A stretch of 25,561 nucleotides of DNA from the NCBI GenBank assembly GCA_026770585.1, contig MU646304.1:262646-288206 (forward strand), in the 5' to 3' direction. The DNA is from Baffinella frigidus (lineage: Eukaryota; Cryptophyceae; Cryptomonadales; Baffinellaceae). How positions within the stretch are numbered: position 1 is the first letter of the stretch; every line of letters begins with the position of its first letter. Both the position numbers and the translations under genes were made by a program. The notes below the pieces were generated by a model. That model saw only the letters and a program-made list of their open reading frames with translations. It made no database searches and was not told the DNA's origin. Below, piece after piece: positions 2,548-25,561 of this stretch.

Positions 2548-5500
2548 GTGCAGAAGCAGCAGAACCAGGTTCCTGGCCCCTATGTCGAGAGCTCGAAGAA
2601 CTTAAAGGATAAAACGAACCATTTACTTCACGCAGCGCCCCTTCCCTGCCGCACAATCCAAGGCGAAGATCCTGAAACCTTCTTCAACGTCGCGACATCT
2701 GGATTTGACCTTGAGAACTCAGAGGACCGGACGCAAGATCCACCCAGCACCGTCGCAGTGCTCCTGCACGGGGCAGGGCACTGCGCTCAGAGCTGGAGCG
2801 CTCTGGTCTCGCGGCTGAACGGCGCCGTCAAGGTCATTGCGCTGGACCACCGAGGTCACGGAGCCTCGCGCGCTTCCGACGAGGGCGACCTGAGGCAAGG
2901 CCCACCGCCCGAACCTGCAGCTGGTCTTGTTCGCAGCTTTCGGACACCAATGCGTGATGATGGCAGTCGCTGCTCTGCTCCCGCTGGTGGATATGTGACC
3001 CGCCTCAACGAATCGCAGCCTCGAGCGCCTTGTGTCGGATCTCCTCCTGGTTCTGCGGGCAGTGCTTGGAGACTCTCGTCCACCACTGGTACACTTCCCT
3101 CTTACTCCACGCTCCCCTCTTACTCCACCTCAGTAAGGACAACCACTGGTGAACCTCCCCCACCCTCTCCACCAATGACCTCCGATGAACTCGAAGATAA
3201 TTCTCTTCCGAGAACTCTCGTCCGCCGGTGGTACGGCTCCCCTCCCTCTCCACCTTCTGGCCTCGGATGAACTCGAAGAGGCTTTGCAGCCTACGCCTCC
3301 CAAGAGGAGATGGCTAGTTCCACCAGCCATCCCAACTGGCTCAAATAGTGCCCTGGAAGGTCTTCGATTTTACCTTGGATCGGGGTCGGATCCGACCCCG
3401 ATCCAAGGTAAATCGAAAATGCCCCAGCGCACTATTTGAGCCACTTCCAAGGGCTAGTGGTTCGAGAGGTTCCTCACCAATGCACCCCCCGTATCAGACC
3501 CTCCTTCCGACCCACTCGCCGTTCCCTCAACCCTAAACTCTAAACCCTAAACCCTATCCTGTTCCACTCCCCTCTTACTCCACGCTCCCCTCTTACTCAA
3601 CCTTAGCAAGAACAACCACTGGTGAACCCCCGCCTCTCCACCATATGGCCTCCAATGAACTCAAAGAGTATTTTCTTCCCGAGAGCAGCTCGTCGCCGTG
3701 GCAATGCGCCTCAGCCCCCCCCCCCTTCTGACCCACGCGCTGTCCCCCAGGTCTTGGTGGGGCACTCAATGGGCGGGAGCGTCGCGGTGCGGAGCGTGAC
3801 GGTTTTGGAAGAGGCGGGGTTTGTTGTCCGCGCGCTCGTCGTCCTTGACACCAGCGAGGTGCACCACCAACCCTCACGGAAAGACCAAATCGTCGATTTT
3901 CAGACCGCGGATTTAGGGGGCATCGGGGTCGGATCCGACCCCGACGACTTTATAATGGCCCAAGAAAAGCTGCTTTATCAGGGTTTGGGAGTTTTAAAAA
4001 TTCTTTGCACAATAGGTCGAAAAGCGTTGACGGTTTTGGAAGAGGCGGGGTTTGATGTCTGCGCGCTCGTCGTGCTGGACACCAGCGAGGTGCAGTCTCG
4101 TCCCCTCCCACATCCCCAAACTGCCGTTTTTTTATTATGAGCGTACTCACCCAGAACCCGAGGTGCAGTCTCGTGCCCTCCCTTCAGGTCCTTTAGGTTC
4201 TTTTAACTCCCACCATAGGCGGACACTGGAACTTATCCTGCAGAAAGGCTCTGCTTCACATCTCGTCCGTTCTCCAAGGCAACCAATATTTTTTTGCAGT
4301 TTGGCGACCCACGAAACGGGCTGTGTTGGCATGCAGACGCCTCTTTTTGAGCGTTTTCCAGCGTTCCCCAAAACTCACCAGCGAGGTGCATTCCCGTCCC
4401 TTCCCACATCCCCCCTGCCCCCTCTCCAAAATGCCGTTTTTTTAATGAGCATACCCACCCAGAACCAGCCGTGGAGGGTTCTGATTGAGTACGCTCATTA
4501 GAAAATGGCTTCATTTCAATGTCTCTCCCACCTCCACTTGAGAATCACTCAAGCTCTCTCACTTGAGCGGGGTACCGCCGTAGCTGCGTCCCCCATCCGA
4601 GGCCCGACCACCCCGCACCCCACGCAGCCTCTCGTTGCCACGATATTCAACTGCTGAACAACGCCAGCTCTCTCTATCTCTCAGGGGACCGCGGTAGCCG
4701 CGTTCGGGCGCTCACCAGCGTGAGAACAAAAACGGTTTCGTTTTTGTTCCGCTCACCGGCGTGAGCTTGGATCGGGGGTCGGACGCCGGTGAGCGCCCGA
4801 ACGCGGCTTTGCGGAACAAAACCGGTTTCGTTTCCGCGTCTCTCGCCGCCAGCAGTTGAATACCGCCAGCTCTCTCGGCTCCAGGCTCTACGCCCGTCTA
4901 TATCCCTAATTCAGTCTGGCGCTCTCACTCGAGCAGGGGACCGCGGTAGCCGCGTTCAGACGCTCTTTCCGTTTCTCGCGCCACCACCAGTTGAGTCGGC
5001 TGGATTCCGCTCTGCAACACCCAGGAGTTTGCGATTTTTCTAGGTATCCAATAAATTTGATCAGGTTAATAACGTCATCTCTCACTCTTGAGCAGGGGAC
5101 AGCAGTGGCAGCGTTCGGGCGTTCGATGGCGGGGCTGCGCCTCCGCCCCAAGTCGTTTCCGTGCGTCGCGCACGCTGATTCTCATCAACAAAAACCTGCC
5201 ACGTTTCCGTGTCTCTCACCACCTCCAGTTGAGAATAACGCCTCCCCCCTCTCACTTGAGCAGGGGACAGCGGTAGCAGCGTTCGGGCGCTCCTCCGCCC
5301 CAAGTCGTTCCCGTCCGCTGCAGACGCAGTCTCCTTGACTCTTCCCCGCTCCATAGTTGACGGATTTGTACCGCACACCCAGCATGTCAGCTTGAGCATA
5401 GTCGACTTTCACACCGCCAGCGCTCTCACTTGAGCAGGGCACAGCAGTGGCAGCGTTCGGGCGTTCGATGGCGGGGCTGCGCCTCCGCCCCAAGTCGTTC

Positions 5501-7913
5501 CCGTGCGTTGCTGACGCTGTGACGTGGGCACTCGACTCCAAGCTCCTCCACTCCCGCGAGTCTGCTGAGTGAGTCCCGCCACCTCATAGATTTGTCTTGG
5601 CGTTGGAGCCGTTTCGTACTTTCAGGACTTAACATACTGGGGTTTGTACCGGAAATTCTTTAGATGGGCACTCGACTCCAAGTTCCTCCACTCCCGCGAG
5701 TCTGCTGAGTAGCGCCCAACCCCTCGCTCTGTCGCAGTCTATTTGGGCTTAACAATCTGGTGAGCAGGGGTTTGCTTCGCTCCAAAGTTGACGGATTTGT
5801 ACCGCATACCCAGCATGTCAACTTGAGAATAGTCTTGACAGTCAACCCGACTGAGGCAGAGCTAGACGATGCTTGCCCCGGCAGCCCGCACGCAGCACAG
5901 CAGGGGACGCTGAGAACCGCGCTGGAGAGAGCTACCACGCCAGATTGGAGGAGGGGGTTAGATTTTTTAACCCGTGTGCGGATACGGGTGTGAACTTTTG
6001 AAAACATTGCCTTGGGGATGAATTGATTTTTGGCGACCCCTTCCAAGAATCTGGTGTGGTAGCTAGTTCGGAGAGGGGAAAGGCGAGGTTGATTAAGTTG
6101 ACATATGTTGATTAAGTTGACATATGTCGCTTCACGTTCACTCATCCATCCACTCGAGAATGCTGGAGGATCCAATTTACATGTGTGGTTTTAAATATTT
6201 GTACCAGGGTAAGGTGTTCCAACCTCGCGCCTGGCCACTATTTGGCTAGTTACATCACCAATCAAAGAAACTTACTACACATATGCCCACTTTTAAAAGC
6301 ACATCGGTTTTAAATAGGCCCCTCTAGCATTCTCGTGTGGATGGCGGGCTTGGAGCCGTGGAAATTTATATAGAGCGCGGGGCCACACAGCGGGCTACGA
6401 AGGGATTTTCGGCCAATTTTGGGCCGAGTTTCCGTTGCCTTATCCGTAGGAACCCTCCTATGCCCCTACGGGTTGCCTACCGTAGGGCCCTAGGTCTTAT
6501 CGCTTAGGGGTTATTCACGAATCCCTTCGAAGTCCGCTGTGTGGGATGGACCTAAATGGCGATCGCACCCCCAGGTTGAGCATTCCGTGCATGGTTGTCG
6601 AGGACGGCAGCGGGGGGGTGAAGTGGCGCGCTGACGTGGAAGGGTCCGCGCCGCATTGGGAAGGCTGGTTTAACCTAAACCCTACACCCTACACCCTAAA
6701 CACCAACCCCTACACCCTAAACCCTAAACCCTGAACCCGATCCGACCCGCATTGGGAAGGCTGGTTTGAGTCCACCCCGCTCCCCAACCCTAAACCCTAA
6801 ACCCTAAACCCTGAACCGTCACTTCTAAACCGTAACCTCTGAAACCTAAACCCTGAAACCTAAACCCTAAACCCTGAACACGTAGCCTCGCGTTGTTTCC
6901 CTAGGATATATACGACTAGTTTAACCCCCCCCCCCTTCGCTCCCCGCCCTGTTTTGCGGCACGATTCGACACCGCATCGATATCCAGCGGCGGGCCATAC
7001 GTATTTTCTTTAAGTTGACACCGGAATCCACTTAAGATTTACTATCCAGCGGGCCTATCTATTCAGAGGCGGGCCTATCTGTCCCGAGGCGGGCCTATCT
7101 ATCCAGAGGCGGGCCTATCTGTCTAGAGGCGGGCCTATCTCACGCAATACCTGAGGCGGTCCTCACAACACTCTCAATTTCGCGCCCCTCTACCATTCAC
7201 TCTTCCTCCCTAGATTCAGGGGCACCTCGCTCATAAGAAACTGCCTCCCACCCTAGGACTCCCATAGGGCCCTAGGCATAGGCATACTGTAGGGTCCTAG
7301 GGGGTTGCGCTTTCTTATGAGCGAGGTACCCCTGTGCCCTTCACTCTTCCGCACTAGATACCCCCCCTCAACTCTCTTGAAACCACAGCCTGTTTCTTCA
7401 CCCCACCGCAGGTTCAAAGGCATGTCATCCGCATTCCTCTCGGTTCCATCACACATCCCGAAGCTGCTGGTGCTATCCTCGCGCGACGGTTTCATAGATA
7501 CAGGGATTTTATAATCGATGTATCGACTGTATAATAGATTTATTGAATGTATGCAACCTCTCCTGAACCACAGCCCGTTTCGCCAGGTTCAAAGGCATGT
7601 CATCCGCATTTCTCACGGTCCCATCGCGGATCCCGAAGCTACTAGTGCTATCCTCGCGCGACAACCTCTCCTGAAACCACAGCCCGCCCCAGAGCTAGGA
7701 TGCTGGCGCTCTCAACGCGCCTCTCTCCTGAAGCCATCTCCAACCCACCGCAGGTTCAAAGGCATGTCATCCGCATTCCTCGCGGTTCCATCACGCATCC
7801 CGAAACTCCTAGTGCTATCTTCGCGGGACAATCTCGATACGACGCTCGTCGTCGGGCAGATGCAGGGGGGGTTCCAGCTGGAAGTGCTCCAGGGCGGCCA
7901 CGCGATCCACGAG
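2548..7913 (+). CDS. PPME1: Protein phosphatase methylesterase 1 (PME-1), alpha/beta hydrolase, six recognised exons
   Basis: Removes the methyl ester from the C-terminal Leu of the PP2A catalytic subunit. Exons: 2548-2894, 3019-3088, 3751-3858, 5438-5568, 6575-6667, 7754-7913; all phases join to 303 codons. Exon 1 has the oxyanion motif LLHGAGH and DHRGHG. Exons 2-3 join as DSRPPL-VLVGHSMGGS (nucleophile Ser ~145). Exon 3 ends VVLDTSE (catalytic Asp ~172) and joins GTAVAAFGRSMAGLRLRPKS. Exon 5 has KWRADVEGSAPHWEGW, exon 6 IPKLLVLSSRDNLDTT and GGHAIHE (catalytic His ~299). These blocks follow the order known for PME-1. Intron 1 uses a GC donor (CTGAG|GCAAGG); the others are GT-AG. The 5' end is uncertain: no in-frame ATG opens exon 1 (position 2548 is GTG), so an upstream exon is likely. 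The last exon is missing or at ~8510. The introns hold many partial exon copies. Confidence 0.85.
3096..3705 (+). repeat. Direct duplication of ~140 bp inside PPME1 intron 2
   Basis: Segments 3096-3235 and 3561-3705 are diverged copies (shared CTCTTACTCCACGCTCCCCT and AACCACTGGTGAACC). Each contains a degenerate copy of the exon-2 end CCACTGGT. The palindromic element 3337-3443 lies between them. Confidence 0.7.
3337..3443. mobile_element. Near-perfect palindromic element in PPME1 intron 2
   Basis: The ends TGGCTCAAATAGTG / CACTATTTGAGCCA are exact inverted repeats. The centre is a perfect palindrome around GGATCC (CGGGGTCGGATCCGACCCCG). The arms carry GATTTTACCTTGGATC and its inverse. A 107-bp foldback, non-coding. 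Confidence 0.8.
3867..3950. mobile_element. Left part of a foldback element at the PPME1 exon 3 donor
   Basis: Begins CCAACCCTCACGGAAAGACC, 8 nt after the end of exon 3, and continues with CAAATCGTCGATTTT. The same end is found complete with its inverse at 19432-19573. It also holds the CGGGGTCGGATCCGACCCCG core of 3337-3443. The right TIR is not visible, so it is truncated. Confidence 0.6.
4027..4089 (+). pseudogene. Shadow copy of PPME1 exon 3 (3' part with donor)
   Basis: Reads TVLEEAGFDVCALVVLDTSE followed by GTGCAG, nearly identical to the end of exon 3 but without the GHSMGG part. It lies downstream of the real exon. Two tiny remnants of the same edge (GCGAG|GTGCAT and CCGAG|GTGCAG) lie at ~4383 and ~4165. 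Confidence 0.8.
4429..4508. mobile_element. Short inverted-repeat element in PPME1 intron 3
   Basis: Imperfect inverted ends CCGTTTTTTTAATGAGCATAC-like on the left and GTACGCTCATTAGAAAATGG on the right. The left arm is repeated at 4123-4150. Confidence 0.5.
4569..5330 (+). pseudogene. Serial shadow copies of the 5' end of PPME1 exon 4
   Basis: Upstream of the real exon 4 (5438) its first bases recur at about 4569, 4685, 4937, 5096 and 5264; the last four follow a CAG acceptor (mutated at the first). The exon text GTAVAAFGR is legible in the copies at 4685, 5096 and 5264; 4937 reads GTAVAAFRR. The copy at 5096 is longest (to FPCVAHA, ~5177); the others stop after 7-12 codons. One more piece is inverted at 4783-4807 and pairs with 4698-4723. 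All lack the exon's 3' end and donor. Confidence 0.8.
5569..5663 (+). mobile_element. Introner-like 95-bp GT...AG segment at the start of PPME1 intron 4
   Basis: Starts with the strong donor GTGAGT directly after exon 4 and ends CTTTAG directly before a copy of the exon end. Its sequence (CTTGGCGTTGGAGCC core, GTACCGGAAA near the end) is homologous to the start of BUB3 intron 5 (15401 downward) and to a BUB3 shadow (15172 downward), both also beginning at the donor GT. Confidence 0.65.
5664..5708 (+). pseudogene. 45-nt in-frame copy of the PPME1 exon 4 end (possible cassette exon)
   Basis: Preceded by TTCTTTAG and followed by GTAGCG. It repeats the last 45 nt of exon 4 with a single codon change (KLLHS to KFLHS). 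Length is a multiple of three and the phase matches, so inclusion would add EWALDSKFLHSRESA without a stop. Confidence 0.7.
5723..5865. mobile_element. Family 4 element, full copy in PPME1 intron 4
   Basis: Left end CTCGCTCTGTCGCAGTC and right end GACTGAGGCAGAGCTAG are inverted. The body has the family marks AAAGTTGACGGATTTGTACC and ATGTCAACTTGAGAATAGTC. About 140 bp, non-coding. Confidence 0.75.
5931..6063. mobile_element. TIR element (GCTACCACGCCAGA ends)
   Basis: Ends GCTACCACGCCAGA / TCTGGTGTGGTAGC are inverted. Inside the right end is TTGGCGACCCCTTCCAAGAA, found inverted in the related element at 22875-23012 in the SMG1-like gene. Confidence 0.75.
6088..6125 (+). repeat. Two tandem 19-bp units
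   Basis: GTTGATTAAGTTGACATAT is present twice, head to tail, without mismatch. Confidence 0.9.
6150..6340. mobile_element. Family 3 TIR element in PPME1 intron 4
   Basis: Ends CCACTCGAGAATGCTGGAGG and CTCTAGCATTCTCGTGTGG are inverted. Body marks: TTTGTACCAGGGTAAGGTGT and TACTACACA. 191 bp; related copies at 12309-12477 and 24360-24571. Confidence 0.8.
6383..6544. mobile_element. Family 2 TIR element 30 bp upstream of the PPME1 exon 5 acceptor
   Basis: Ends CCACACAGCGGGCTACGAAG and CTTCGAAGTCCGCTGTGTGG are inverted over ~25 bp. The core contains a CCCTACGG/CCGTAGGG palindrome like family 1. Related ends at 8209-8342 and 14905-15042. Confidence 0.8.
6668..6890 (+). repeat. CCCTAAA array at the start of PPME1 intron 5, with an exon 5 shadow
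   Basis: From the donor (CTG|GTTTAACC) the sequence passes directly into CCCTAAA/CCCTACA units. At 6741-6763 the end of exon 5 (CGCATTGGGAAGGCTG|GTTT) occurs a second time, followed by a second CCCTAAA/CCCTGAAA array. Confidence 0.85.
7049..7140. repeat. 20-bp tandem repeat, about 4.6 units
   Basis: Unit GCGGGCCTATCTATCCAGAG with few changes, no spacers. Lies in PPME1 intron 5. Confidence 0.9.
7215..7336. mobile_element. Family 1 TIR element in PPME1 intron 5
   Basis: Left end TTCAGGGGCACCTCGCTCAT, right end the inverse ending CCCCTGTG. 122 bp with the usual CCTAGGAC/CCCTAGGCATAGG core. The TA at each end has mutated. Confidence 0.85.
7412..7667 (+). pseudogene. Two shadow copies of the 5' part of PPME1 exon 6
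   Basis: At 7412-7488 and 7587-7667, each after a CAG acceptor, the sequence reads FKGMSSAFLSVPSHIPKLLV and FKGMSSAFLTVPSRIPKLLV, then runs off the exon after SSRD. They lack the GQMQGG...GHAIHE half. The complete exon follows at 7754. Short AT-rich and ACCACAGCC repeats lie between. Confidence 0.85.
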
Positions 7914-7931
7914 GTGTGCCAACCATCCACG

Positions 7932-8028
7932 CATTAATTAGGGCCCTAGCTAAATATTAACTAGGGCCCTAACTAAGCATTAATTAGAGCCACAACTAAA
8001 CATTAATTAGGGCCCTAAGTAAATAACG
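7932..8028. repeat. Tandem TTAATTAGGGCCCTAA units
   Basis: Three to four ~33-bp units of ATTAATTAGGGCCCTAACTA. A similar unit recurs at 8115-8150 and inside the foldback 13611-13756. The unit is itself nearly palindromic. Confidence 0.8.
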
Positions 8029-8059
8029 ACCGGTGCCTTATCCATTAGGCCACCGACGC
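8028..8059 (-). tRNA. Fragment: 5' half of a tRNA-Arg-like sequence
   Basis: On the minus strand the text GCGTCGGTGGCCTAATGGAT continues AAGGCACCGGTC: a 7-nt acceptor strand, then a D arm with GCCT/AGGC stem, like arginine tRNAs. No matching anticodon stem, T arm or 3' acceptor strand follows, so this is not a working tRNA. It could be a SINE head or a tRNA-fragment insertion. Confidence 0.4.
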
Positions 8060-8208
8060 ACCAAAAAGAGGAGCTATCCACACCGTGGACGCCCCTGTAT
8101 ATATACTACTCTCAGTGAACATTAATTAGGGCGCTAACTAAATTTAGTTAGAGGGCCATAATCCCGATTGCTCACCCAGGTGCGCCTCGAATTGCTCGTG
8201 CCGCGATC

Positions 8209-8342
8209 CACACAGTGGGCTTCGCAGATCGGTCCATTTATTTTGGTGGCTCTAATCAAGTATCGCTCGGTACAAAGACATCTTAGTAACCGATATTTCG
8301 ACATGATTTTCGGTCGGAATATCCTTCGAAGCCCACTGTGTG
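8209..8342. mobile_element. Family 2 TIR element
   Basis: Ends CACACAGTGGGCTTCG / CGAAGCCCACTGTGTG are exact inverted repeats; 134 bp, non-coding body. Confidence 0.75.
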
Positions 8343-8509
8343 CCAGCCAACTTGCCAGCGCCCCTCCATCAGCCCTCTACGAGGTGTGCCAAACTCAGGG
8401 AGCGTTATTTCTACCGACACGGCCGCTGTGTATGCACCCCCACCGAGGCTGTGTCTGTGCAGGACTCTGATTGCACGAGGCTTCCCCAGTTGAGGCGGCC
8501 AAGACCAAG

Positions 8510-8647
8510 GCACATCTCAACTCTGTCGAATTGGTTCGTTTCAAATTGCTTGGTCGTTTTGTTCACTGGATTCTCCTCGTCACTGTAGGACATTTAGGGA
8601 GAAAGAGGTTTTCAAAACAGTCCTTGTTCCAGCCTCGACTTGTTTAG
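8510..8647 (+). CDS. PPME1: Possible last exon of PPME1
   Basis: Exon 6 ends in phase 0 after HAIHE, and PME-1 proteins need ~20 more residues. After an AAG-type acceptor (AAGACCAAG) this stretch reads AHLNSVELVRFKLLGRFVHW and on to a TAG at 8645-8647. The pattern V-x-x-LV-x-F-x-L-x-x-R loosely resembles the known C-terminal helix. A second, similar copy starts at 8670 (AHLDFVELVRFDLIGRVVHW) and a third fragment is at ~8797. Which copy, if any, is used is unclear. Confidence 0.35.
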   Translation, partial: AHLNSVELVRFKLLGRFVHWILLVTVGHLGRKRFSKQSLFQPRLV

Positions 8648-9057
8648 TCAACAGCCTGTGCTCACCAAGGCACACCTGGATTTTGTCGAATTAGTTCGTT
8701 TCGATCTGATTGGTCGGGTTGTTCATTGGATTCGTGCTCTGATTGCGCTAGGCTCCCACGCAGGACCACCCCGCAGCGCGGGTTGGCCCCCCCCCCGGTT
8801 CAAATTGATTGGTCGACTTTTCACTGGGCGCCCCACAGCGCTGCGCTCTGATTGCGCGAGGCTTCCCCACAGGACCAAAAGATTTTGTACCAGGACAAGC
8901 CATCTATTGCGAACGAGTGTATATGAAAATCCCATTTCTGACCTGGCGTGGCTTCCACGCAGGACCACCCCGCGGCACTCGCGACAATCCTCCGCCGTTT
9001 CCTCGCACGATACGCCCTCGCCCCTGCGCCGTCCTCCGAAGCCTCCAAACCACGTCC

Positions 9058-9126
9058 TACAGGGGTACCTCGCTCATAAGAAACGCCCACCCCCCTGGGA
9101 CCACCAAGGGCCCTAGGCATAGGCCC
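9058..9126. mobile_element. Half copy of family 1 with duplicated flank
   Basis: Left end and half the core only. The right half is missing; instead the sequence that precedes the element (TCCTCCGAAGCCTCC, 9036) occurs again at 9134-9157. Confidence 0.75.
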
Positions 9127-9313
9127 CTCCGCTTTCCTCCGAAGCCTCCGAACCACGCCCGAACCCTTTCGTTACCCGGCCTGCCTTCCCCTAGCCGCCG
9201 GTGGACACCTCCGTGTATACCCCTCAAGTGCCCATAGGGTGAATATCCACCCTAACTCGCCCATAGGCAGGTCCTAGGGCCCTACCGTAGGGCGTATGAG
9301 CCTACAGGGCACT

Positions 9314-9434
9314 TACAGGGGTACCTCGCTCGTAAGAAACCGCCCCTCCCTAGGACCCTACAGTAGGCCTATGGCTAGGGCCCTAGGGTGGTCCCATGAG
9401 GGGGGCAGTTTCTTATGAGCGAGGTACCCCTGTA
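9314..9434. mobile_element. Family 1 TIR element
   Basis: TACAGGGGTACCTCGCTCGT ... ATGAGCGAGGTACCCCTGTA, 121 bp with the standard core. Confidence 0.85.
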
Positions 9435-9507
9435 GGGGATACGGGTGTTGGGCACCTCCCTACGCGGGTGCGCGGTGTGCACAGTTGTGCATATGACGCG
9501 AGTGCTG

Positions 9508-9870
9508 TACAGGGTTACCTCGCTCATAAGAAACTGCCCCCTCCCTAGGACCACCGTAGGGCCCTAGGCATAGTCCTACTGTAGGGTCCTAGGGGGAGGC
9601 GGTTTCTTATGAGCGAGGTACCCCTGTACAGGGTTGCCTCGCGCTGAAGGAGGCGCACCCCCCTAGGACCCTACAGTAGCCCTATGCCTAGAGCCCTATG
9701 GGAGTCCTAGAGGGTGGGGCAGTTTCTTGTGAGCGAGGTATCCCTGTACAGGGTTACCTCGCGCGTACATGTAACGAGGCGCACCCCCCTAGGACCCTAC
9801 AGTAGGCCTATCTAGCCCTACGGTGGTCGTAGGGGGGGGCGCGGTTCCTTATGAGCGAGGTACCCCTGCA
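9508..9870. mobile_element. Three family 1 elements in tandem, sharing single TA dinucleotides
   Basis: Copies at 9508-9628, 9627-9748 and 9747-9870. Each right end ...CCTGTA overlaps the next left end TACAGGG... by exactly TA. The left ends of copies two and three have diverged (TACAGGGTTGCCTCGCGC, TACAGGGTTACCTCGCGCG). Confidence 0.85.
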
Positions 9871-10013: not shown

Positions 10014-10136
10014 TACAGGGGTACCTTACTCGTAAGAAACCGCACCCCCCTAGGACCATACAGTAGGACCATGCCTAGGGTCCTAGGGTGGTCCTAGGGG
10101 GGGGGGGCGGGTTCTTATGAGCGAGGTACCCCTGTA
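10014..10136. mobile_element. Family 1 TIR element
   Basis: TACAGGGGTACCTTACTCGT ... CGAGGTACCCCTGTA, 123 bp. The 143 bp between this copy and the tandem trio hold an open stretch reading CEACDVSGRVKRHNR, which I do not recognise. Confidence 0.8.
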
Positions 10137-10737
10137 CATGTAGCCGGCATGCGCTGCTCGAAACACTCGCTGCACCAAAGCGTGGTGCTCCTCCTATTCA
10201 ACACAGCGCCCCCCTTACCCCCCCTTCGTCCGAAGAATTCGGGCCTTCTGCGATATTGGATGTGCGAACAAGGCTCAAGCCCGCTGATAGTAGTAAAGGA
10301 CTCTACCTTGGTCGGACAAACCCAGGCCTTGTGCGAACGAAAGAGGTGCGAACACGATGTGCGAACACGGCCACGCAGGCCGCTCTCTGATTGGGCCGCG
10401 TGTGAGGACCGGGTCCGGGATATAGGGATTTCCCCCGATAGGACTCACCCTTGGAGCCCTTATCCCCTGAGGCGGGCCCATCCCGGACCCGGTCCTCACA
10501 CCGCGGCCCGTGTGCGAGCAAGAAGCGCGAACAAGGACCAGACGGCGCGCTGCTGAACCCGGGCCTTGTGCGAAAAAGAGAGGTGCGAACAAGAAGAGCC
10601 AGGCTCAGGCCTTCTGCGATGTTTGGTTGTGCGAACGTGTTTGGTTGGATCAGGCGGCGCGCTGCTTGGGCCGCGGCCGGACTTCTGTGTCGGAGAGCGG
10701 CCGGAAGAAGATCTGGTCCGGCGGCGTGTTCTGCCGT
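10137..10737. other. Gene-poor stretch with GTGCGAAC motifs and a foldback element
   Basis: No supported gene. GTGCGAACA-like words recur at 10262, 10330, 10346, 10359, 10582 and 10629, a degraded dispersed repeat. At 10393-10509 lies a foldback with ends GGGCCGCGTGTGAGGACC and GGTCCTCACACCGCGGCCC. It precedes the GGGTTTA arrays. Confidence 0.6.
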
Positions 10738-11520
10738 CCAGGGTTTGGGGTTTAGGGTTGGGAAATTATGGTTTATGGTTTATGGTTTATGGTTTATGAT
10801 TTATGGTTTAGGGTGTAGGGTTTAGGGTTATGTGTCGGACAAGGGGCGGAAGAGGATCTAGATCCGCCCCCCCTAGGACCACCGTAGCACATAGGCATAT
10901 TTGTACATGTAGGGTCCTAGGCCGCACTTCTGTGTCGGAGAGCGGCCGGAAGAAGATCTGGTCCGGCGGCGTGTTCTGTTGAGGGTTTGGGGTTTGGGGT
11001 TTGGGGTTTGGGGTTTGGGGTTTGGGGTTTGGGAATTGGGGTTTGGGAATTGGGGTTTGGGGTTTGGGGTTTAGGGTTTAGGGTTTAGGGTTTTAAGGTC
11101 AATGCCGTCGTGCCACCCGCACATCAGGGCTTCGGGAATCAACGGTACAGGGGTACCTCGCTCATAAGAAACCGCCGCCCCCCCCTAGGACCACCATAGG
11201 GCCCTAGGCACAGGCCTACTGTAGGGTCCTAGTGGGTGGCGGTTTCTTATGAGCGAGGTACCCCTGTACGAAAGACGATCTGGTCCGGCGGCGTGTTATG
11301 CCGTCATGGTAGGGTTTAGTGTTTAGGGTTTGGGGATTAGGGTTTAGGGCTAAGGGTTTAGGGGCTGGGGTTTGGGGTTTAGGGGTTTGGGTTTTGGGTT
11401 TTGGGTTTCGGGTTTAGGGTTTAGGGGTTGGGGTTGGGGTTCAGGGTTTAGGGTTTAGGGTTTAGGGTTTAGGGCTTATGGCTAAGGTCGTATGGTTTAT
11501 GGCTTATGGTTTATGGCATA
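10738..11520. repeat. GGGTTTA / GGGTTTG arrays with a family 1 element between
   Basis: Arrays at 10738-10830, 10981-11096 and 11311-11520, all G-rich on the plus strand, thus C-rich in the BUB3 sense direction. A 40-bp unit (CGGAAGAAGATCTGGTCCGG) precedes two of them (~10700, ~10945) and a shortened form (GATCTGGTCCGGCGGCGTGT) precedes the third (~11276). Internal arrays, not a chromosome end: unique genes lie on both sides. Confidence 0.85.
11146..11268. mobile_element. Family 1 TIR element between GGGTTTA arrays
   Basis: TACAGGGGTACCTCGCTCAT at the left and its exact inverse at the right; 123 bp. Confidence 0.85.
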
Positions 11521-11652
11521 GGGATTGGCACCCCACGCACGTTGCGAGCTGTGCAATGCAAGCCCGGGCAAAACTGCCCGGGGTTAGAAAACGAGGTGAG
11601 TAAATAATAAAATGAAACCCATACGGAATAAACAATAGAAAATAAGAAATAC

Positions 11653-11722
11653 CTTCTCGCCTTCTTCGAAGGTGTAGGGAGAGGCGACGGCTAGGATGGC
11701 GCCAGTGGGGTTGAACGCCAGC
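11653..11722 (-). pseudogene. Shadow copy of BUB3 exon 9 (3' part with donor)
   Basis: On the minus strand reads [20 protein letters not shown] then GEK and the donor GTATTT. It repeats two thirds of exon 9 with one residue changed. It is separated from the real exon by the element 11723-11830. Confidence 0.85.
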
Positions 11723-11830
11723 TAAAACGAAGGACACACACCACCCCCAGCGTGGTCCTATGCTCCTAAGACTAGCTCTACAGTAGGACCCTAGGGCGGT
11801 GTGTGTCCTTAATTTCGAGTAATCCCTGTA
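11723..11830. mobile_element. Diverged family 1 element sitting in the BUB3 exon 9 donor
   Basis: Its right end, read on the minus strand, is TACAGGGATTACTCG, then GGACACACACC; the inner inverted repeat GGACACACACC pairs with 11732-11742. The family core (CTACAGTAGGACCCTAGGG) is kept. The outermost TA forms the donor of exon 9: AAG|GTACAGG. Confidence 0.75.
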
Positions 11831-11831
11831 C

Positions 11832-12539
11832 CTTCTCGCCTTCCTCGAAAGTGTAGGAAGAGGCGACGGCTAGGATCGCGCCGGTCGGGTTGAACGCCAG
11901 CGCCGCCACCGACGTGGGATACGACCACGGTGCCTGCAATACCAGGACAGTTAGATAGTTAGAGTGCTGCGTAGAGAAGTTGGCCACGGAAATAATGAAA
12001 TAATGGTAAGAGTTGACGGCTCTGGTACAAACATCATCGCATCGCTTCGGCCGAGGCTGCACTTTCTTTCCTGACCGGTTCACACCAAAATCTCCATTTC
12101 CACCCGAGAAGAACTGCGGAAGGTCGGGTGGGAAACCTAGCTCTGCCTCAGTCTATTTGGGCTCACCAATTTGGTGAGCCCGGGCCCTTGCCCGCTCCAA
12201 AATCAACGAATTCGCACCGCACACCCAACATGTCAACTTGGGAATAGTCTGACAGTCGACCCGAGTGAGGCAGCGCGGGCAACGTGCCTGCAGACGGATC
12301 TGGTTCTGCAAGAGGGCCCTATTTACATGTGGGGTTGTAAACTTTTGTACCAGGATAGGGTGTTCCCACCTCGTGTCTGGCCTAATCGGGCATCAAATGG
12401 CTCCAAAGGCAATGAAAGTTACTACACAAAAGACTACATCTCGGTTTAAAATAGGCCCCTCTAGCATTCTCGTGTGGAACGTGCCTGGAGGCGGATCTTG
12501 TTCTGTCCGTCCCACATGACAACCTTCACGTATATATAC

Positions 12540-12624
<85 letters not shown>

Positions 12625-12919
12625 NNNNNNNNNNNNNNNNNNNNNNNNNNNNNNNNNNNNNNNNNNNNNNNNNNNNNNNNNNNNNNNNNNNNNNNNNNNN
12701 NNNNNNNNNNNNNNNNNNNNNNNNNNNNNNNNNNNNNNNNNNNNNNNNNNNNNNNNNNNNNNNNNNNNNNNNNNNNNNNNNNNNNNNNNNNNNNNNNNNN
12801 NNNNNNNNNNNNNNNNNNNNNNNNNNNNNNNNNNNNNNNNNNNNNNNNNNNNNNNNNNNNNNNNNNNNNNNNNNNNNNNNNNNNNNNNNNNNNNNNNNNN
12901 NNNNNNNNNNNNNNNNNNN

Positions 12920-13015
<96 letters not shown>

Positions 13016-13886: not shown

Positions 13887-13952
<66 letters not shown>

Positions 13953-14048
13953 GTCTCTCTGTCTCTCTCTCGCTCTCTCTTTCTTGGTGTGTCCTGCTCC
14001 CCCCAGGGGTGTGGTTGATTCGGTTTGGTTCAGTGTTGGTACCAATCA

Positions 14049-14092
<44 letters not shown>

Positions 14093-18269: not shown

Positions 18270-21200
18270 ATGCCTTCGCCCCCCCTGTTCGCAGCCGGGA
18301 TCCCGGCGCTGCTCTACACCGCGCAGGCGGTTGAGCAGCGCCCAGATGTGCGAATTGCAGCCTTGGAGGAGCTCTCCGCCACACTTCTTCCGGGCTTCGG
18401 CATCGCGAAGCCGGAAAAGCAGGAGGATCTCGGCTGGGCGGAGGTGGAGGACGATTCGGGGAACTGCTGGGAAGGTGGGGACGGGGCGGCGCGCCGCTCC
18501 TACCTCTGCGAGAACCTTGCCCCGCTGATCCTCCCGGCACTCGCCTCCGTTCTCATGGACCGTGAACCTGCGGTGATGTACAAGGGCGTCGCCGTGCTCG
18601 CGCAGATCGGCGCAGCGCTCGGGTGAGCCGCAGCTCCACACCCACCGCGCTCTCCCCCATCATCCCTTTCCTCGACACCTCCGTGACCACCCCGTCTTCG
18701 ACCCTGATCCCCTCCCCTCGCGGACTTCCGTCCCCCGCGCGCAGGAGCGACAGCGCCCACCTCTTCATGTTCCTCGAGACGTCCGTGGAGCTGCACGCGG
18801 TGCAGGACCCGTTCCGCCTCTCGGCGATCCTCTCGGTCGTCTCGCAGATGCTGGCGCTCGGCGCCGCGGACTCCATCGCGCCCTTCCTCAGCAGGTCGCC
18901 CACGCCGCCACTTCGCCTAAACCATAATTCCTCAACCATCAACCCTCAACCCTCAACCCTCAACCCCAAAACCAGAACCCTAAACCCTCAACCCTCAACC
19001 CTAAATCCTCAACCCTCAACCCTCAACCCTCAACCCCAAACCCTAAACCCTAAACCCTAAACCCTAAACCCTGAACCCTGAACCCAAAATCCTAAACCCT
19101 GAACCCTAAACCGAACCCTAAATCTGAACCCTAGACCCTAAACCCTAAACTCAGTGTTGCAGACGGAACAGAATGGCTCATCTTCCAGTTCTGCCTGCCA
19201 CGCCAGAGGGATCGAAACATCCACTTTTGACATCTTTCACGGGAAACCTCTTGAACTCTTAAGTCAACGACGACAGATCTGTCGTGGATAAGGCGTCGGT
19301 TTCCCTCCATCGTTCTGGCGGGGTGAGTTGATCTGGTCTCCTCAAAATGAGGAGACCGGGGTTTCAATTCCTTGTTTTGCGTTACAAATTCGTCAAAATT
19401 ATGGAGTGGAAACGATCAGGCAATCCAAGCACCAACCCTCATTGGACCAAATCATCGATTTTGGACTTGAGATTTACCCTGGCAAAGACCCCGGATCCGG
19501 AGTCTCTGCAAGGGTAAATCAAGGGTAAATCTAGAAGCTAAAATCGACGATGTGGTCCGATCGTGAGGGTTGGTGGACCTGAGGCAGCGCTAGAGCTCTC
19601 CACCTGCTCGCAAAGTCATCAAGACTCTTGACCCGGTGCAAATCCGTCAACTTTGGTGCGGAAAAGAGCCCGGGCTCACCAAATCGCTTCCCCCAAATGG
19701 CCGGATATAGAGGTAGATGTTGACTCTCGCCCGGCTGCTGCAGGCTCCGTCAACTTTGGACCGGAAAAGAGCCCGATTTCACCAAATCGCTTCGCCCAAA
19801 TAGCCTGAGACAGAGGTAGATCTTGACTCTCGCCCGGGTGCCGCAGGCTCGTCGCGCGATTAACAATCCTCCTGAGCGGAAAAGAGCCCGGGCGCACCAA
19901 ATCGGCGAGCCCAAAAAGACAGAGACAGAGGTGGATGTTGACTCTCGCCCGGCTGCCTGTTGACTCTCTTGCCCGGCTGCCGCAGGCTCGTCGCGCGGTT
20001 GACGGATCTCCCATCCGATTTGCTACAAAAATTACCACACGGACGTGACTGGAAAAGTCCGGTGTGTAGTAATTTTCGTTGCCGTATTTGAGTCAAATAC
20101 TCGCCGCGATTAACTCTCGCCCGGCTGCTGCAGGCTCGTCGCGCGGTTGACGGTCCTCCTCGAAACCGGAGAGCATCACCACCAGGTCCTCCTGAGAGAG
20201 AGAGAGGGAGAGAGAGAGGGAGAGAGCGAGCGAGAGAGAGAGAGAGGGAGGGAGAGAGAGAGGGAGAGAGAGAGAGCGAGAGAGGGAGGGAGAGAGAGAG
20301 GGAGAGAGAGAGAGAGCGAGAGAGAGAGAGGACCTGCACTCTCAGTCACAGCTCGGTCACAGCGCAGTCCTAGCTCCGTCTCAGTCTCTTTGATCCTACC
20401 AATTTGGTGGGACCAGGCCCTTTCCCGCTCCCAAGTTGACGGATTTGTTCCAGACACCCACACGTCCACCTAAGCACAGTCAGCCAACCCGACTGAGGCA
20501 GAGCTAGAGGTCCTCCCCCTCCTCCCACCACCCACTCGTGTCCGAGCCCGGAACCAGCTCCATTCCCGTGCCCCCGTGCGGTGGCAACCTGGACCTCCTT
20601 CGACGCCCGGGTCGTGATGCACTCGTTCGTCCTAGGGCCCTACGGTAGGAGGTCCTAGGCAGGTCAGCACCGCGTGGACGCCAGCGGCCCAGAGCCCAGC
20701 GTCGGTGAACCTCGGACGTGGCTATCCCGGGAAAGAGGGGGATGAAGTGTAGTGTCGCTGGTTTTTGGAAACTTTATTCCAGGAATTGACTTGATGGCTT
20801 TGCGGGGGCAGGTGGTTCCTATCGTGGCGGCGCTCGCCGACATAGGCATCGCGCAACCCGCGCTCCTCCAGCCGACGTTGGCCTCGATCGCTGACTTTTG
20901 GCGTGTTTCGGAGAAGAATCCCAGGATCAAATTTAGATTTAAATTTCCACGTGTGAGCTGGCGTGGACAAAGAAAGAGGGGAGTGAAGTGTTGTGTCGGG
21001 GGCAGGTGGTGCTTATCGTGGCGACGCTAGCCGATGTTGGGATCGCGCAACCCGCGCTCTGAAGTGTTGTGTCGCTCACTTCACCCTCTCCTGGTGGCTT
21101 GCGCGTTCGCGCTCGGCTGGCTGGATTCCGCTTTATAACACCCAGGATTTTGCTATTTTATGGATACCCGATGAACTTCATTCATGTCGGGGGCAGGTGG

Positions 21201-24200
21201 TCCCGATTGTGGCGACGCTGGCCGATATTGGCATCGCGCAACCAACGCTCCTCCAGCCGACGTTCCACGACACTGTCGACCTCCTCGTCGGATGGAGTCT
21301 CGACGAGCAGGTCTGTTCTAGAATTCCCATCGAAAAAACGTCTTAAATTCCCATTAAAAAACGTTTTTTTTTCAGAATGTGTGTAGATGGACGGCTACTG
21401 AGATGAAGTTAATCAAAGCACGCGAGACCAGAGTGCGTGCATGGTGTATTGGACTAGTGTTGTGCTCCTCCAACCGACGTTCCACGACACTGTCGACCTC
21501 CTCGTCGGATGGAGCCTCGACGAACAGGTCTGTCCGTCTTCTAGCGCTGCCTCACTCGGGTTGACCGACTTTTGTCAAGTTGACATGCTGGGTTTCCAGT
21601 GAAAATTCGTCAACTTTGAAGCGGAAACGACCCCGGGCCCACCGAATTGATGCGCCCGAATAGCCTGCGACGGAGCTAGATCTCGGCGGCCAGCGCTCCT
21701 CCAGCCGACGTTCCACGACACTGTCGACTTTCTCGTCGGATGGAGTCTCGACGAGCAGGTGTTCTCTCCAAAGTTGACGGATTTGTACCTCGGACCCAGG
21801 ATGTCAACTTAAGAATAGTCGGTGAGGCAGAGCGAGGGCTCGCCCGCGAAAACATGGAAGCCAGCGGTCCTCCAAAGAATTTCACCTTCATTTGTTTATT
21901 TTTACTTCGAGTACTGTCGACCTCCTCGTTCCACACGAGGCTACCCAGGCGAACAGAATAAAAGGCACTTTTAAAGTTTTGTGGGGAAATGATCACGTTT
22001 CCGCCCGCTGAGCGGTCGGTCGGTTACCTTATCCGTGATCATTTCCCCACAAAACTTTAAAAGTCCTTTTTATTCTGTTCGCCTGGGTAGCCTCGTGTGG
22101 TTTGGTGGAGTCTCGACGAGCAGGTCCTCGCTCCACCTCAGCTCGCGGACTATTCGTAAGTTGACATATGCTGGGTTTGCAGTGCAAACCCGTCAACTTT
22201 GGAGCGGAACAGATCCCGGGCCCACCAAATCGATGAGCCCAAATAGCCTGCGACGGAGCTCCTACCTCTGCCTCAGTCTATTTGGTCTCACCAATTTGGT
22301 GAGCCCGGACACGAGTGGAAACGTTGACGGTTTTGTACCACGCTCACAGGATGTCAACTTGAGAATAGTCGGCCAACCCGAGTGAAGCAGAGCTAGTGTT
22401 GAGTCCTGAGTCCTGAGTCCGGAGTCCTGAGTCCTGAGTCCTGGGTCCTGAGTGTTGACTGCTGACTGCTGAATCTTGAGAACCACGGCGCAGGTGCCTC
22501 AGCGGGTGCGGAAGACTTTCACGCGATCCTTCCGAGGGTCCTAGCTCAAATCACTTCGCTTGGGACGGGAGTCCTAGCTCAAACCCAACTAAGGATCAGG
22601 TGCCCCAGCGGGTGCGGGAGAGGTTCACGGCATCCCTCTGAGGGTCCTCGCTCAAAACACTTGGGAATGCTTGTGACGGGAGGCCACACGGCCCTAGCTC
22701 AAAACCGACCACGGGGTGTTGAGTGCTGGCTTCTGACTGCTAACTGCCGACTGCTGAATCTTGAGAACCACGGATCAGGTGCCACAGCGGGTGCGGGAGA
22801 CGTTCACGCGATCCCTCGGAAGCCTGCAGCACCTCTGGGGGCAGGACCTCCCCTTCGCCCAGGCTCCCGCCCTCCCACGCCAGATTCTTGGAAGGGGTCG
22901 CCAAAAGTCGATTCCACGGAAGGAATAAGGGGAAATTGTTTACTTTGGGGATAGTTCGGCACCCAAAAGTGCGCTCGGAAAGAGCCGAACCCCCACGGGG
23001 ATTCTGGCGTGGCCCCTTCAGCCTCGGGAGGGCTCCCGGGGGGGGGGGGGGGTGCCACGCGCGCGGGTGACCCCACTGCCGAAATCCTACCCGCGACTCG
23101 CTGGACGCTACACCCCACACCCTGCAAGTGAAACGGTTTGGAGCTTGGTTGATGGGTGCAGCGTCCCTCCCTTGACCCACCCTCGCGCAGCGAAGCCGTT
23201 CCTCCCGTGACCCACCCGGTCTGCCTGAACACCAACTCGGCACACGCAAGGCAGTCACCTCGGACAGTTGGCTTCGGCGGGCGCTCACGAGCCTGCCGGC
23301 GGGGCTGTTCCACGCCGGCAGAAGCGCTTCTTCGCTGCGTACCGTCGGACCACGTTTGTCCTTTGTGTTATCTCGCGGGTGGAATTTGCCATCGTAGCCT
23401 CGGCAGAACTTTACCATAGCGCAGCACATCTCCTAAGTCGCCTGGAGGACCTCTGGGGGTAAGACCTCCTTTTCGCACAGGCTCGCACCCTCCCTTCAAC
23501 CGACCTCGTGCTCCAATGGCTCCAATGCACTGCCAGCGAGAAAATTTCGCAGAGGACGTGAAGACACTTTAATGTGTCTCAGACACATATAGTCGCTGTG
23601 ACAGCGACAACAATGTTCTAAAAGGGTCTTCACGTCCTCCGCGAAATTTTTCGCTGGTAGTGCAATAAGTCCAATCGGTCCAGTAGCTCCGCTGTCGCCC
23701 AGGCTCCCGCCCTCCCTTCAGCCAACATCGTTCTCCCCTGTGTACGGTTGGACTGCGTTTGTGTGCGCTGCATAGTTTTGCAACAGGCTAGATTTGACCA
23801 GTCGATACCTGGTTTTGACCAGTAGAGCAGCCTCGCGTGTGTGTGCGCTGCGACCGTCGTTGCCGTCTTGCGGTAGGCTAGATTTGACGAGTCGACTACG
23901 GGGTTCGCTACATCGAGGCTAAGATAGCAAGTTTCATCTTTGTAAGAGCACACAACGGTGTTTTCAAATTGAATCTGATTTCGCATTAGATTGACGAAAG
24001 GCGGCAAAACACACAAGTAGGGCGTAGCCGGAAACCTCCTGAAAGACATCAAACGCGAAAAGAAGGCTGGCGCTCGCACACGCAGGCGCTAGCCGACTAT
24101 TCTCAAGTTGACACGCTGGGTCTGTGGTACATCAAAGTCGACAGATTTCTGGTGGCCGCCAGGCGTTGGCTGGGAATCTTCTCAAAGACATCGAGCGCGA

Positions 24201-24763
24201 GAACAAGGCCGGGGCTCGTCGCGAGCCTGAGCTCATGCGTCAACTTTTGGCTGACTCCGTCAACTTTGGGCTGATTTTTGGTGGCCTCCAGGCGTTAGCC
24301 GGGAACCTCCTGAAAGACATCGAGCGGGAGAAGAAGGCCGGGGCACGGCGCGAGCCTGACCACTTGAGAATGCCAGAGGGGCCTATTTAAAACCGAACAT
24401 ATAAGGTCTTTACTACACAAACGCTCAAATTTGTACCAGGATAAGATAAAAGTGACCTCGTGCCTGGTATATTTTTTACCGGGCACGAGGTTACTTTACC
24501 TTATCCAGGTACAAATATTTACAACATTTCCCCCCCACATATAAATAGGCCCCTCTAGCGTTCTCGTGTGGTGAGCTTGTGCGGCTCTTGGGCTGATTTT
24601 TGGTGGCCTCCAGGCGTTGGCCGGGAACCTCCTGAAAGACATCGAGCGCGAGAAGAAGGCCGGGGCGCGCCGCGAGCCTGAGCTGGTGCGGCTCGTAACC
24701 TGTTTGGTCGGGATCCTCGAGGGGGTCGCCAGCGTGGTCTTCTCCTCCGACCATCAGAAGACG
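18270..24763 (+). CDS. SMG1: SMG1-like PI3K-related kinase, part of the HEAT-repeat N-terminal region, six exons; 3' end outside the window
   Basis: SMG1 phosphorylates UPF1 in nonsense-mediated mRNA decay; its kinase domain would lie beyond the window. Exons: 18270-18622, 18745-18894, 20134-20185, 21197-21310, 22779-22862, 24614-24763; joined phases give 301 codons. Exon 1 shows helical-repeat text (DVRIAALEELSATLLPGFG, LAPLILPALASVLMDREPAV). Exon 4 has TFHDTVDLLVGWSLDEQ, exon 5 SLGSLQHLWGQDLPFAQ, exon 6 ALAGNLLKDIE; this order matches the conserved SMG1 block D-x-VD-LVGW, SL-x-x-W, DL-x-F, G-x-x-L-x-D-x-E. The 52-nt exon 3 fits only as AG+G...CAG (RLVARLTVLLETGEHHHQ). Exon 5 needs a GC donor (GCCCAG|GCTCCC). 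Start uncertain: ATG 18270 is possible, but a pyrimidine-rich CAG at 18292 could be an acceptor of an internal exon. The family call rests on remembered motifs; a general HEAT protein is the alternative. Confidence 0.7.
18913..19152 (+). repeat. CCCTAAA / CCCTCAA array at the start of SMG1-like intron 2
   Basis: Begins about 20 nt after the donor AGCAG|GTCGCC with CCTAAACC and continues ~240 bp in CCCTCAA, CCCTAAA and CCCTGAA variants. C-rich on the sense strand. Confidence 0.9.
19432..19573. mobile_element. TIR element (CCAACCCTC ends) in SMG1-like intron 2
   Basis: CCAACCCTCATTGGACCAAA and TGTGGTCCGATCGTGAGGGTTGG-type inverse; inner arms ATCATCGATTTT / AAAATCGACGAT and GATTTACCCT / AGGGTAAATC. 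142 bp. The left end matches 3867. Confidence 0.8.
19574..20010 (+). pseudogene. Acceptor-side shadows of SMG1-like exon 3 alternating with partial family 4 elements
   Basis: GCAG|GCTCGTCGCGCG recurs at 19847 and 19986, with a weaker copy at 19744, each after CTCGCCCGGCTGC-type text as at the real acceptor (20133). Between them are three inverted partial family 4 copies (GGAAAAGAGCCCGGGCTCAC, CAAATCGC). Shadow 19847 keeps about 27 nt of the exon. Confidence 0.75.
20027..20076. mobile_element. Small hairpin element
   Basis: AAAATTACCACACGGAC and GTCCGGTGTGTAGTAATTTT are inverted; inserted in a copy of the exon 3 acceptor region. Confidence 0.6.
20193..20331 (+). repeat. GA microsatellite 8 nt after the SMG1-like exon 3 donor
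   Basis: Imperfect (GA)n with GGGA and GCGA interruptions, GA on the sense strand. Confidence 0.9.
20370..20507. mobile_element. Family 4 element, full copy
   Basis: CTAGCTCCGTCTCAGTC and GACTGAGGCAGAGCTAG ends; 138 bp; AAGTTGACGGATTTGTTCC inside. Confidence 0.8.
20812..21061 (+). pseudogene. Two acceptor-side shadows of SMG1-like exon 4
   Basis: At 20812 (VVPIVAALADIGIAQPALLQ, then PT and divergence) and 21006 (VVLIVATLADVGIAQPAL, then a stop). Both follow GGGGGCAG like the real exon at 21197. Each is preceded by GAAGTGTWGTGTCG text. Confidence 0.85.
21541..21679. mobile_element. Family 4 element, inverted full copy
   Basis: CTAGCGCTGCCTCACTCGGG left, GCGACGGAGCTAG right; 139 bp. It separates two exon 4 shadows. 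Confidence 0.75.
21931..22100. mobile_element. TIR element inside an exon 4 shadow
   Basis: CCACACGAGGCTACCCAGGC and its exact inverse at the right end; the inverted arms extend ~65 bp (GAACAGAATAAAA, TTAAAGTTTTGTGGGGAAAT) around a short GC-rich loop. 170 bp. Confidence 0.9.
22139..22396. mobile_element. Two family 4 elements in opposite orientation, adjacent
   Basis: An inverted copy at 22139-22260 (AGTTGACATATGCTGGGTTT, CCCACCAAATCGATGAGCCC) directly followed by a forward copy 22262-22396 (CTACCTCTGCCTCAGTC ... GAAGCAGAGCTAG). Confidence 0.7.
22397..22778 (+). repeat. 7-bp GAGTCCT array and two acceptor-side shadows of SMG1-like exon 5
   Basis: GAGTCCT repeats ~8 times (22400-22457), then GACTGCT units, then CAG and a shadow of exon 5 at 22494 (VPQRVRKTFTRSF); a second shadow at 22600 (VPQRVRERFTASL, stop). 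The real exon at 22779 is again preceded by GACTGCT units and TTGAGAACCACGG. Confidence 0.8.
22875..23012. mobile_element. TIR element (CCACGCCAGATTC ends)
   Basis: CCACGCCAGATTCTTGGAAG left; GGGGATTCTGGCGTGG right, inverted with mismatches. Related to 5931-6063. Confidence 0.65.
23436..23705 (+). pseudogene. Donor-side shadows of SMG1-like exon 5 around a TIR element
   Basis: 23436-23470 (LEDLWG then a stop, ...CTTTTCGCACAG|GCTCGC) and 23695-23704 (TCGCCCAG|GCTCCC). Both keep the CAG|GC border, supporting a GC donor. Between them lies the element 23526-23664, ends TGCACTGCCAGCGAGAAAAT and its inverse. Confidence 0.7.
23526..23664. mobile_element. TIR element
   Basis: Inverted arms of ~39 bp with few mismatches (GAGGACGTGAAGAC / GTCTTCACGTCCTC inside), 139 bp. 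Confidence 0.85.
24022..24590 (+). pseudogene. Three acceptor-side shadows of SMG1-like exon 6, the third split by a family 3 element
   Basis: Copies at 24022 (AGNLLKDIKREKKAGA, degraded), 24163 (ALAGNLLKDIERENKAGARR) and 24292-24359 (ALAGNLLKDIEREKKAGARR). The third is cut after GCCTGA by the element 24360-24571 and resumes with GAGCTTGTGCGGCTC. The same TTTTTGGTGGCCTCCAG acceptor precedes the third shadow and the real exon. Confidence 0.85.
24360..24571. mobile_element. Family 3 TIR element inserted in coding-like sequence
   Basis: CCACTTGAGAATGCCAGAGG and CTCTAGCGTTCTCGTGTGG are inverted; a long inner foldback GTACCAGGATAAG / CTTATCCAGGTAC. TGA occurs on both sides, compatible with a 3-bp target duplication. 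Confidence 0.85.
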
Positions 24764-25561
24764 GTGCGAACTCTGAATCCTGAACTATCAACTATAAACC
24801 CTGAACTACGAACCCTGAACTTTGAACTATGAAATATGAACCCTACACTGTCTCGTTGGGATCCTCGAGGGGGTCGCCAGCGTTGTCTTCTCCTCCGACC
24901 ATCAGAAGGCGGTGCGAACCCTGAACCCTGAACTATCAACTACAAACCCTGAACTATGAACTACGAACCCTGAACTATGAACCTGTTGATTGATTGATTA
25001 CTTGGGTTTAAATTAATTGATTAATTGGGTTTAGATTAAGCCTGAGCTCGTGCGGCTCGTAACCTGTCTCGTCGGGATCCTCGAGGGGGTCGCAAGCGTG
25101 GTCTCCTCGGATCATCAGAAGACGGTGCGAACCCTGAACCCTGAACCCTGAACTATGAACTTTAAACCCTGAGCTATGAACCCTGAACTATGAAGTATGA
25201 ACTATGAGCCCTACACTGTCTCGTTGGGATCCTCGAGGGGGTCGCAAGCGTGGTCTTCTCCGACCATCAGAAGGCGGTGTGAACCCTGAACCCTGAACTA
25301 TGAACCCTGAACTATGAACTATGAACTTTAAACCCTGAACTACGAACCCTGAACCCTGAACCCTGAACTATGAACCCTACACTGTCTCGTTGGGATCCTC
25401 GAGGGGGTCGAAAGCGTGGTCTTTTTGGATCATCAGAAGACGGTGCGAACCCTGAACCCTGAACTATGAACCCTGGACCCTGAACCCTGAACCCTGAACC
25501 CTGAACCCTGGACCCTGAACCCTGAACCCTGAACCCTGAACCCTGAACCCTGAACCCTGAA
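24764..25561 (+). repeat. Tandem array of exon 6 donor shadows and CCCTGAA repeats
   Basis: After the real donor (AAGACG|GTGCGA) comes CCCTGAA/ACTATGA text, then four donor-side shadows of exon 6 at 24848-24911, 25039-25124, 25216-25276 and 25382-25442 (GILEGVASVV, then DHQK), each again followed by GTGCGAACCCTGAACC-type arrays. Units are ~170-190 bp. The window ends inside the last array. Confidence 0.9.

Follow-up and report, generated by a model that had tools for sequence, protein, structure and literature searches.

How do the introns of a gene come to hold truncated copies of the borders of its own exons? This question is raised by a stretch of 25,561 nucleotides from the Arctic cryptophyte alga Baffinella frigidus, called the window here, in which a first-pass annotation had counted about 35 such copies in three genes, PPME1, BUB3 and an SMG1-like gene. 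These truncated exon-border copies are real and are found in introns of B. frigidus beyond this window too. No earlier description of exon-border copies inside introns surfaced in literature searches.

Exon borders were set by homology and in-frame splicing before the copy scans, and were checked against PDB relatives and a B. frigidus transcript protein. PPME1 lies on the plus strand (2629-9024; 3c5w, 1.9e-53; NCBI Baffinella frigidus P0121), and its exons P1-P7 (2629-2894, 3019-3088, 3751-3858, 5438-5568, 6575-6667, 7754-7913 and 8963-9024) splice in frame. BUB3 lies on the minus strand (10650-17815) with exons B1-B10 (17654-17815, 17428-17532, 17130-17276, 16722-16823, 15402-15532, 14511-14541, 13764-13839, 13035-13090, 11832-11933 and 10650-10730), and its spliced ten-exon translation has zero mismatches over the aligned residues of the MMETSP transcript protein P0001 (taxid 697907, now Baffinella frigidus). 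The SMG1-like gene is present with its N-terminus on the plus strand (18270-24763; SMG1 6l53, E=5e-8), comprising exons S1-S6 (18270-18622, 18745-18894, 20134-20185, 21197-21310, 22779-22862 and 24614-24763), and these N-terminal exons gave zero Pfam matches. Every intron of the three models is of the GT-AG or GC-AG type, and all splice in frame. P0001 lacks 28 residues spanning the BUB3 exon 2/3 junction (window 17130-17532), and the NCBI PPME1 model P0121 skips exon 2 (3019-3088) and takes intron 1 as coding. In addition, at 1045-1250 on the minus strand, a RING/TRAF-like gene, named from its open reading frames by eye, seems to have an intron that is almost entirely a 7-bp GGTTTCG array.

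The main scan was performed with the 23 window exons, 15-nt flanks, low-complexity masking and a threshold of E<=0.01, with self-BLAST and unmasked border scans alongside. Thirty-seven border copies were typed, close to the number first counted, and their polarity is strict: the copies of 5' exon ends all lie upstream of the working exon (18/18) and those of 3' exon ends all lie downstream (19/19), on the same strand, with no wrong-polarity copy among the 37. The annotation was also right that only the inner copy is complete, the masked scan having found no complete exon copy for the 23 window exons or for the 17 exons of CCT1. Cross-gene controls, in which the 23 window exons were compared with C94 and 17 exons with the window, gave no matches either way. 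Left out of the 37 are a B10 copy that was typed as interior because its border is masked, a weak B7 match (E=0.006) located in the B9 copy, and an antisense self-match of S1 which is a palindrome. Copies within the threshold accompany 13 of the 23 exons (S3-S6, P3-P6, B4, B5 and B8-B10); P2, P7 and B7 have weaker or masked copies only, seen in the border scan, and no border copies were found for S1, S2, P1, B1-B3 and B6 in the masked scan at E<=0.01. A copy holds roughly 15-90 nt of exon, and the splice dinucleotide is usually retained, the acceptor AG in 19 of 22 5' copies and the donor GT or GC in 18 of 21 3' copies.

In PPME1, all on the plus strand, P3 has a 3' copy (exon 43-108) with donor at 4023-4094 (93%); P4 has five 5' copies (masked scan) at 4556-4589, 4682-4713, 4922-4965, 5081-5177 and 5249-5330, just the five on one side that had been claimed for this exon, and a 3' copy (88-131) at 5665-5710 (98%); P5 has a 3' copy at 6747-6767 (E=3e-4); and P6 has two 5' copies at 7399-7487 and 7584-7668 (masked scan). 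One P4 5' copy stands next to its own inverted copy and forms a foldback (window 4696-4808). The BUB3 copies, on the minus strand, are the B4 3' copies at 16586-16618 and 16364-16429 (masked scan), weak B5 3' copies at 15162-15194 (E=3e-4) and 14601-14622 (E=0.006), a weak B5 5' copy at 15879-15901 (E=0.002), the B8 3' copies at 12475-12519 (to 12531 by self-BLAST) and 12283-12308 (self-BLAST and masked scan), a B9 3' copy (33-102) at 11650-11722 (92%), and 5' copies of the last exon, B10, at 11269-11305 and 10913-10975 (border scans). In the SMG1-like gene, on the plus strand, the masked scan gave 5' copies of S3 at 19832-19873 and 19971-20011, of S4 at 20803-20879 and 20994-21059, and of S5 at 22479-22535 and 22587-22641, as well as 3' copies of S4 at 21464-21533, 21690-21765 and 22106-22126 and of S5 at 23440-23494 and 23681-23716. 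S6 has 5' copies at 24021-24077, 24150-24239 and 24277-24359, the last of which resumes at 24572-24587 past an element, and 3' copies at 24848-24925, 25039-25123, 25216-25278 and 25384-25444 with tandem arrays between them.

The pattern extends beyond the window: border copies are present at 10 of the 11 gene loci examined, and outside the window 36 of 37 same-strand copies have the expected direction. CCT1 (17 exons, contig 94), scanned with masking because 7-bp arrays swamp the unmasked scan, has four upstream 5' copies and three downstream 3' copies, plus one weak antisense interior match. CCT4 (8 exons), CCT6 (6 exons) and seven kinesin exons on five contigs gave 30 same-strand copies, 29 of them in the expected direction, together with three weak antisense matches (E=0.006); the single exception in direction outside the window is a weak match (E=0.006) at a distance of 5 kb. 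One kinesin locus with two exons showed no border copies in the scan. The kinesin exon borders are ends of HMM matches, so the typing of their copies is approximate, and the kinesin loci C506 and C112 were picked after overlapping partial matches had been seen, whereas the other three were not so picked. One K506 copy, covering 15-105 of 123, shrinks to 62-105 with stricter scoring. The scans leave out a chaperonin on contig 1202 and the RING/TRAF-like gene of the window.

What, then, lies between the copies? The annotation had taken the introns to be largely exon-border copies, which is too much: the copies amount to only 1,349-1,754 of 17,270 intron bp, that is, 7.8-10.2% (S6 3' copies beyond 24763 left out), while foldback/TIR elements from a hand-compiled list make up 25% and simple repeats 12% of the same introns. 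Some copy-free introns are 103-151 bp long (S1-S2, P1-P2, B1-B2, B2-B3 and CCT6 1-2), and others are longer. A palindromic element of about 125 bp with TACAGGGGTACCTCGCTCATAAGAAA ends occurs in many copies (72-195, 7217-7335, 9058-9868, 10014-10137 and 11145-11269), several of them head to tail at 9508-9868. The annotation had also stated that the copies are mostly separated by a TIR element, a 7-bp array or a GA tract, and this is partly so, since a foldback element or tandem array is present in 17 of 31 spacers and some repeat recognised within the window in 21 of 31, but in 10 of 31 no repeat was recognised. These counts are the ground for supposing that insertion of transposable elements, or repair of their excision, lies behind each duplication; yet 14 of 31 spacers are without a listed element or tandem array (the element list is hand-compiled and incomplete, and a narrower array list gave 15/32), and two foldback TIR elements sit within existing copies. 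One at 24360-24571, with a clear 3-bp target duplication TGA, splits an S6 5' copy, which resumes at 24572, and another at 21931-22100 splits an S4 3' copy into pieces at 21913-21929 and 22106-22126; these two elements therefore arrived after the copies. As a general cause, which the annotation had suggested, the elements are very improbable.

A simpler idea is that plain local tandem duplication across the borders, whether by slippage or by unequal sister exchange, produced the copies, that these then decayed neutrally, and that elements were inserted afterwards. Some copies are indeed plain tandem units with the intron part included, and long same-context units are found at B4 (255 nt of intron), K506 (at least 300) and K112 (260) and in the S6 array. 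Exon-side breakpoints are common to several copies, and local direct repeats are dense elsewhere too, with 17-74 per 10 kb, element copies included, in the seven random stretches (within L009-L019) of which 2.5 kb or more could be read, most of the random stretches reading N. However, the intron flank common to copy and working exon is shorter than 10 nt in 26 of 57 copies, 10-29 nt in 14 and at least 30 nt in 17, of which nine are flanked by arrays, so homology stays below 30 nt in 40 of 57 copies. Moreover, a dead copy should change about equally at all codon positions, so that, according to our own derivation, no more than about half of its differences should fall at third positions, but the observed share is 69% (152/220; 95% interval 60-75%). 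Duplication without anything further is thus unlikely. The tandem duplication of exon-intron borders put forward at first stands as far as the border-spanning duplication, the strict polarity, the many exons and the other genes are concerned, and is incomplete with respect to the short flanks and the third-position bias.

Compared with the working exon, 59 copies differ at 48/920, 20/922 and 152/916 sites of codon positions 1, 2 and 3 (5.2%, 2.2% and 16.6%), the pattern is unchanged after trimming of the truncated ends, and the position 2 to position 3 ratio is 0.08-0.22 by bootstrap over 33 exon-sides. Fifty-four copies hold 126 synonymous differences over about 620 sites and 68 nonsynonymous ones over about 1,843 sites, a nonsynonymous/synonymous rate ratio of about 0.18, with one stop in 821 codons and eight deleted bases, counts to which local alignment contributes by favouring gap-free copies. 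Changes private to a single copy have the same bias (25, 14 and 73 changes, each out of about 270 sites, over 17 exon-sides). The 40 copies that lack flank homology show the strongest bias (6.3%, 1.9% and 17.7%), and the eight whose complex intron homology extends to 30 nt or more show a weaker one (0.8%, 4.2% and 11.0%); in the same eight the flank divergence of 10.5% equals that of position 3 and exceeds those of positions 1 and 2. Base composition and CpG mutation were rejected as its source, as the bias persists outside CpG and third positions are highest for A, C, G and T. Judging from these comparisons, most differences of the copies are silent, as though the copies had still been functional coding DNA a short time ago. 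Frozen fossils of the working exon were rejected as a reading, because the private changes are mostly on the copies (112 vs 14 on the working exon). A split-exon model, in which a new exon inserted in the middle of an old one leaves 5' and 3' copies as complementary halves, was not supported, with six of 11 exons fitting within 6 nt and about four under the null (P=0.17 and 0.09).

Could the copies be in use, or be selected directly, as alternative exon edges, recursive splice sites or splicing decoys? The retained splice dinucleotides and the coding-like constraint speak for this, but splice-site use alone would give no three-base rhythm, and inspection of the truncation points by eye showed no consistent splice sites. 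Translation as in-frame inserts was rejected: copy spacing modulo 3 is 0, 1 and 2 in 13, 19 and 16 of 48, and just two of 48 copies are in frame and stop-free, the other 46 being out of frame or with stops. The BUB3 copies contain eight residue differences (not counting one more in the weak B7 match), and the transcript carries the working-exon residue at each of them. Hence neither the frame and stop check nor the BUB3 transcript residues gave signs of copy translation, and use of the copies is quite unlikely. At one BUB3 position, both copies of B4 have Asn and the working exon has Lys; Asn is also found in P0002 and P0003 (Hanusia phi), and Lys in P0006 (Hemiselmis).

Coding-like differences are also what alleles show, and so the copies might come from an artefact of the assembly or sample, in which several diverged genotypes of a culture were merged and truncated alleles were placed in series. 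The published assembly, which we infer to be the genome scanned here, is Illumina-only, made with AllPathsLG, and consists of 10,880 scaffolds, its strain having been obtained by serial selection-dilution that was continued until only one species remained (PMC9756366); the word "intron" is absent from the main text of that paper. Given such an assembly, this explanation is retained, although it too is unlikely. The truncation points sit in read-length stretches joined to unrelated sequence, elements interrupt copies, and at K506 blocks that already held copies were duplicated again. Furthermore, in all seven introns found with both kinds of copies (P3-P4, P5-P6, S4-S5, S5-S6, B4-B5, B9-B10 and CCT4 2-3) the order is X, X', Y', Y, namely, 3' copies of the upstream exon followed by 5' copies of the downstream exon, unlike alleles in series, and just one BUB3 locus is present in the 382,457,362 bases of 1364 contigs searched (the published assembly has 534.5 Mb).

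The reading that we prefer, though tentatively, combines duplication of the exon borders with recombination between copies and working exons, perhaps those of other alleles. The borders have been duplicated; sequence exchange with working exons, probably those of other alleles, is a supposition added to this. Duplications of DNA across exon-intron borders left truncated border copies in the introns, and the strict polarity presumably arises because a duplication is tolerated only where one complete inner exon remains. In most copies the exon part is still close to the working exon and the flanks are unrelated. This exon part, as the sole remaining homology, may go on recombining with working exons, whether through gene conversion or through one-ended exchange, and the partners would probably be versions in other, diverged alleles, which may be the source of the copy sequence. 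Several observations count against allele exchange. One is the single BUB3 locus in the part of the genome searched. An open reading frame of a relative, P0122 (ENA contig of 2242 bp), runs through the SMG1-like S1-S2 intron and exon 2 with recognisable intron similarity, so a native intron can be aligned at a higher protein divergence than the copies show, and longer flank homology would then be expected if the copies had simply been captured from another allele. In addition, private changes are rarer on the working exon than on the copies, so the set is not an exchangeable sample of alleles. A bolder and rather unlikely reading is that introns differ so much between chromosomes that exons are the only islands of homology, and that attempts at recombination between diverged alleles break down again and again at exon edges, with truncated, coding-like border copies of other alleles as their residue, in which case each haploid genome would be a fossil sample of the exon variants of the population and introns would grow by failed recombination.

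If real, border duplication with recombination would be a common path by which introns grow across a single genome, with both processes at work. In that case it may also help to explain failing gene models, as seen in the NCBI PPME1 model, which skips an exon and reads an intron as coding, and in the published BUSCO coverage of 72.3% (PMC9756366). Coding-like differences in non-coding copies would also allow a direct test of sequence exchange between exons and the copies in introns. Should the copies be an artefact, they are a warning about intron structure in this assembly.

Several known systems resemble these introns in part. In intron gain by tandem duplication, one exonic segment is duplicated and a new intron forms between two AG|GT sites, and potato RdRp is reportedly an example of gain by tandem (internal) gene duplication. 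Both cases have duplicated exonic sequence in or beside an intron, and splicing restores the mRNA; however, that model would place the copy of the downstream exon's start first in the intron, whereas B. frigidus has the order X, X', Y', Y in seven introns. Tandem exon duplication with mutually exclusive exons also gives local copies of one exon with splice sites, but those copies are complete and have both sites, and in B. frigidus no complete copy was found for the 23 window exons and 17 CCT1 exons, the copies retaining a single splice site. Under neutral partial tandem duplication, codon positions should be biased no further than by changes in the working exon itself, and a further bias is present here. 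Homology-facilitated illegitimate recombination in bacteria uses homology at one end and non-homologous joining at the other, which is the shape suggested for copies without flank homology, and we know of no intron-exon case. Finally, introners, as described in PMC9860276, give rise to new introns, some families with target duplications of 3-9 bp, and share with the present case intron-dense protist genes and TIR elements with short target duplications in introns, but what is duplicated in B. frigidus is a piece of exon of 15-90 nt, and foldback elements are present without being the duplicated unit.
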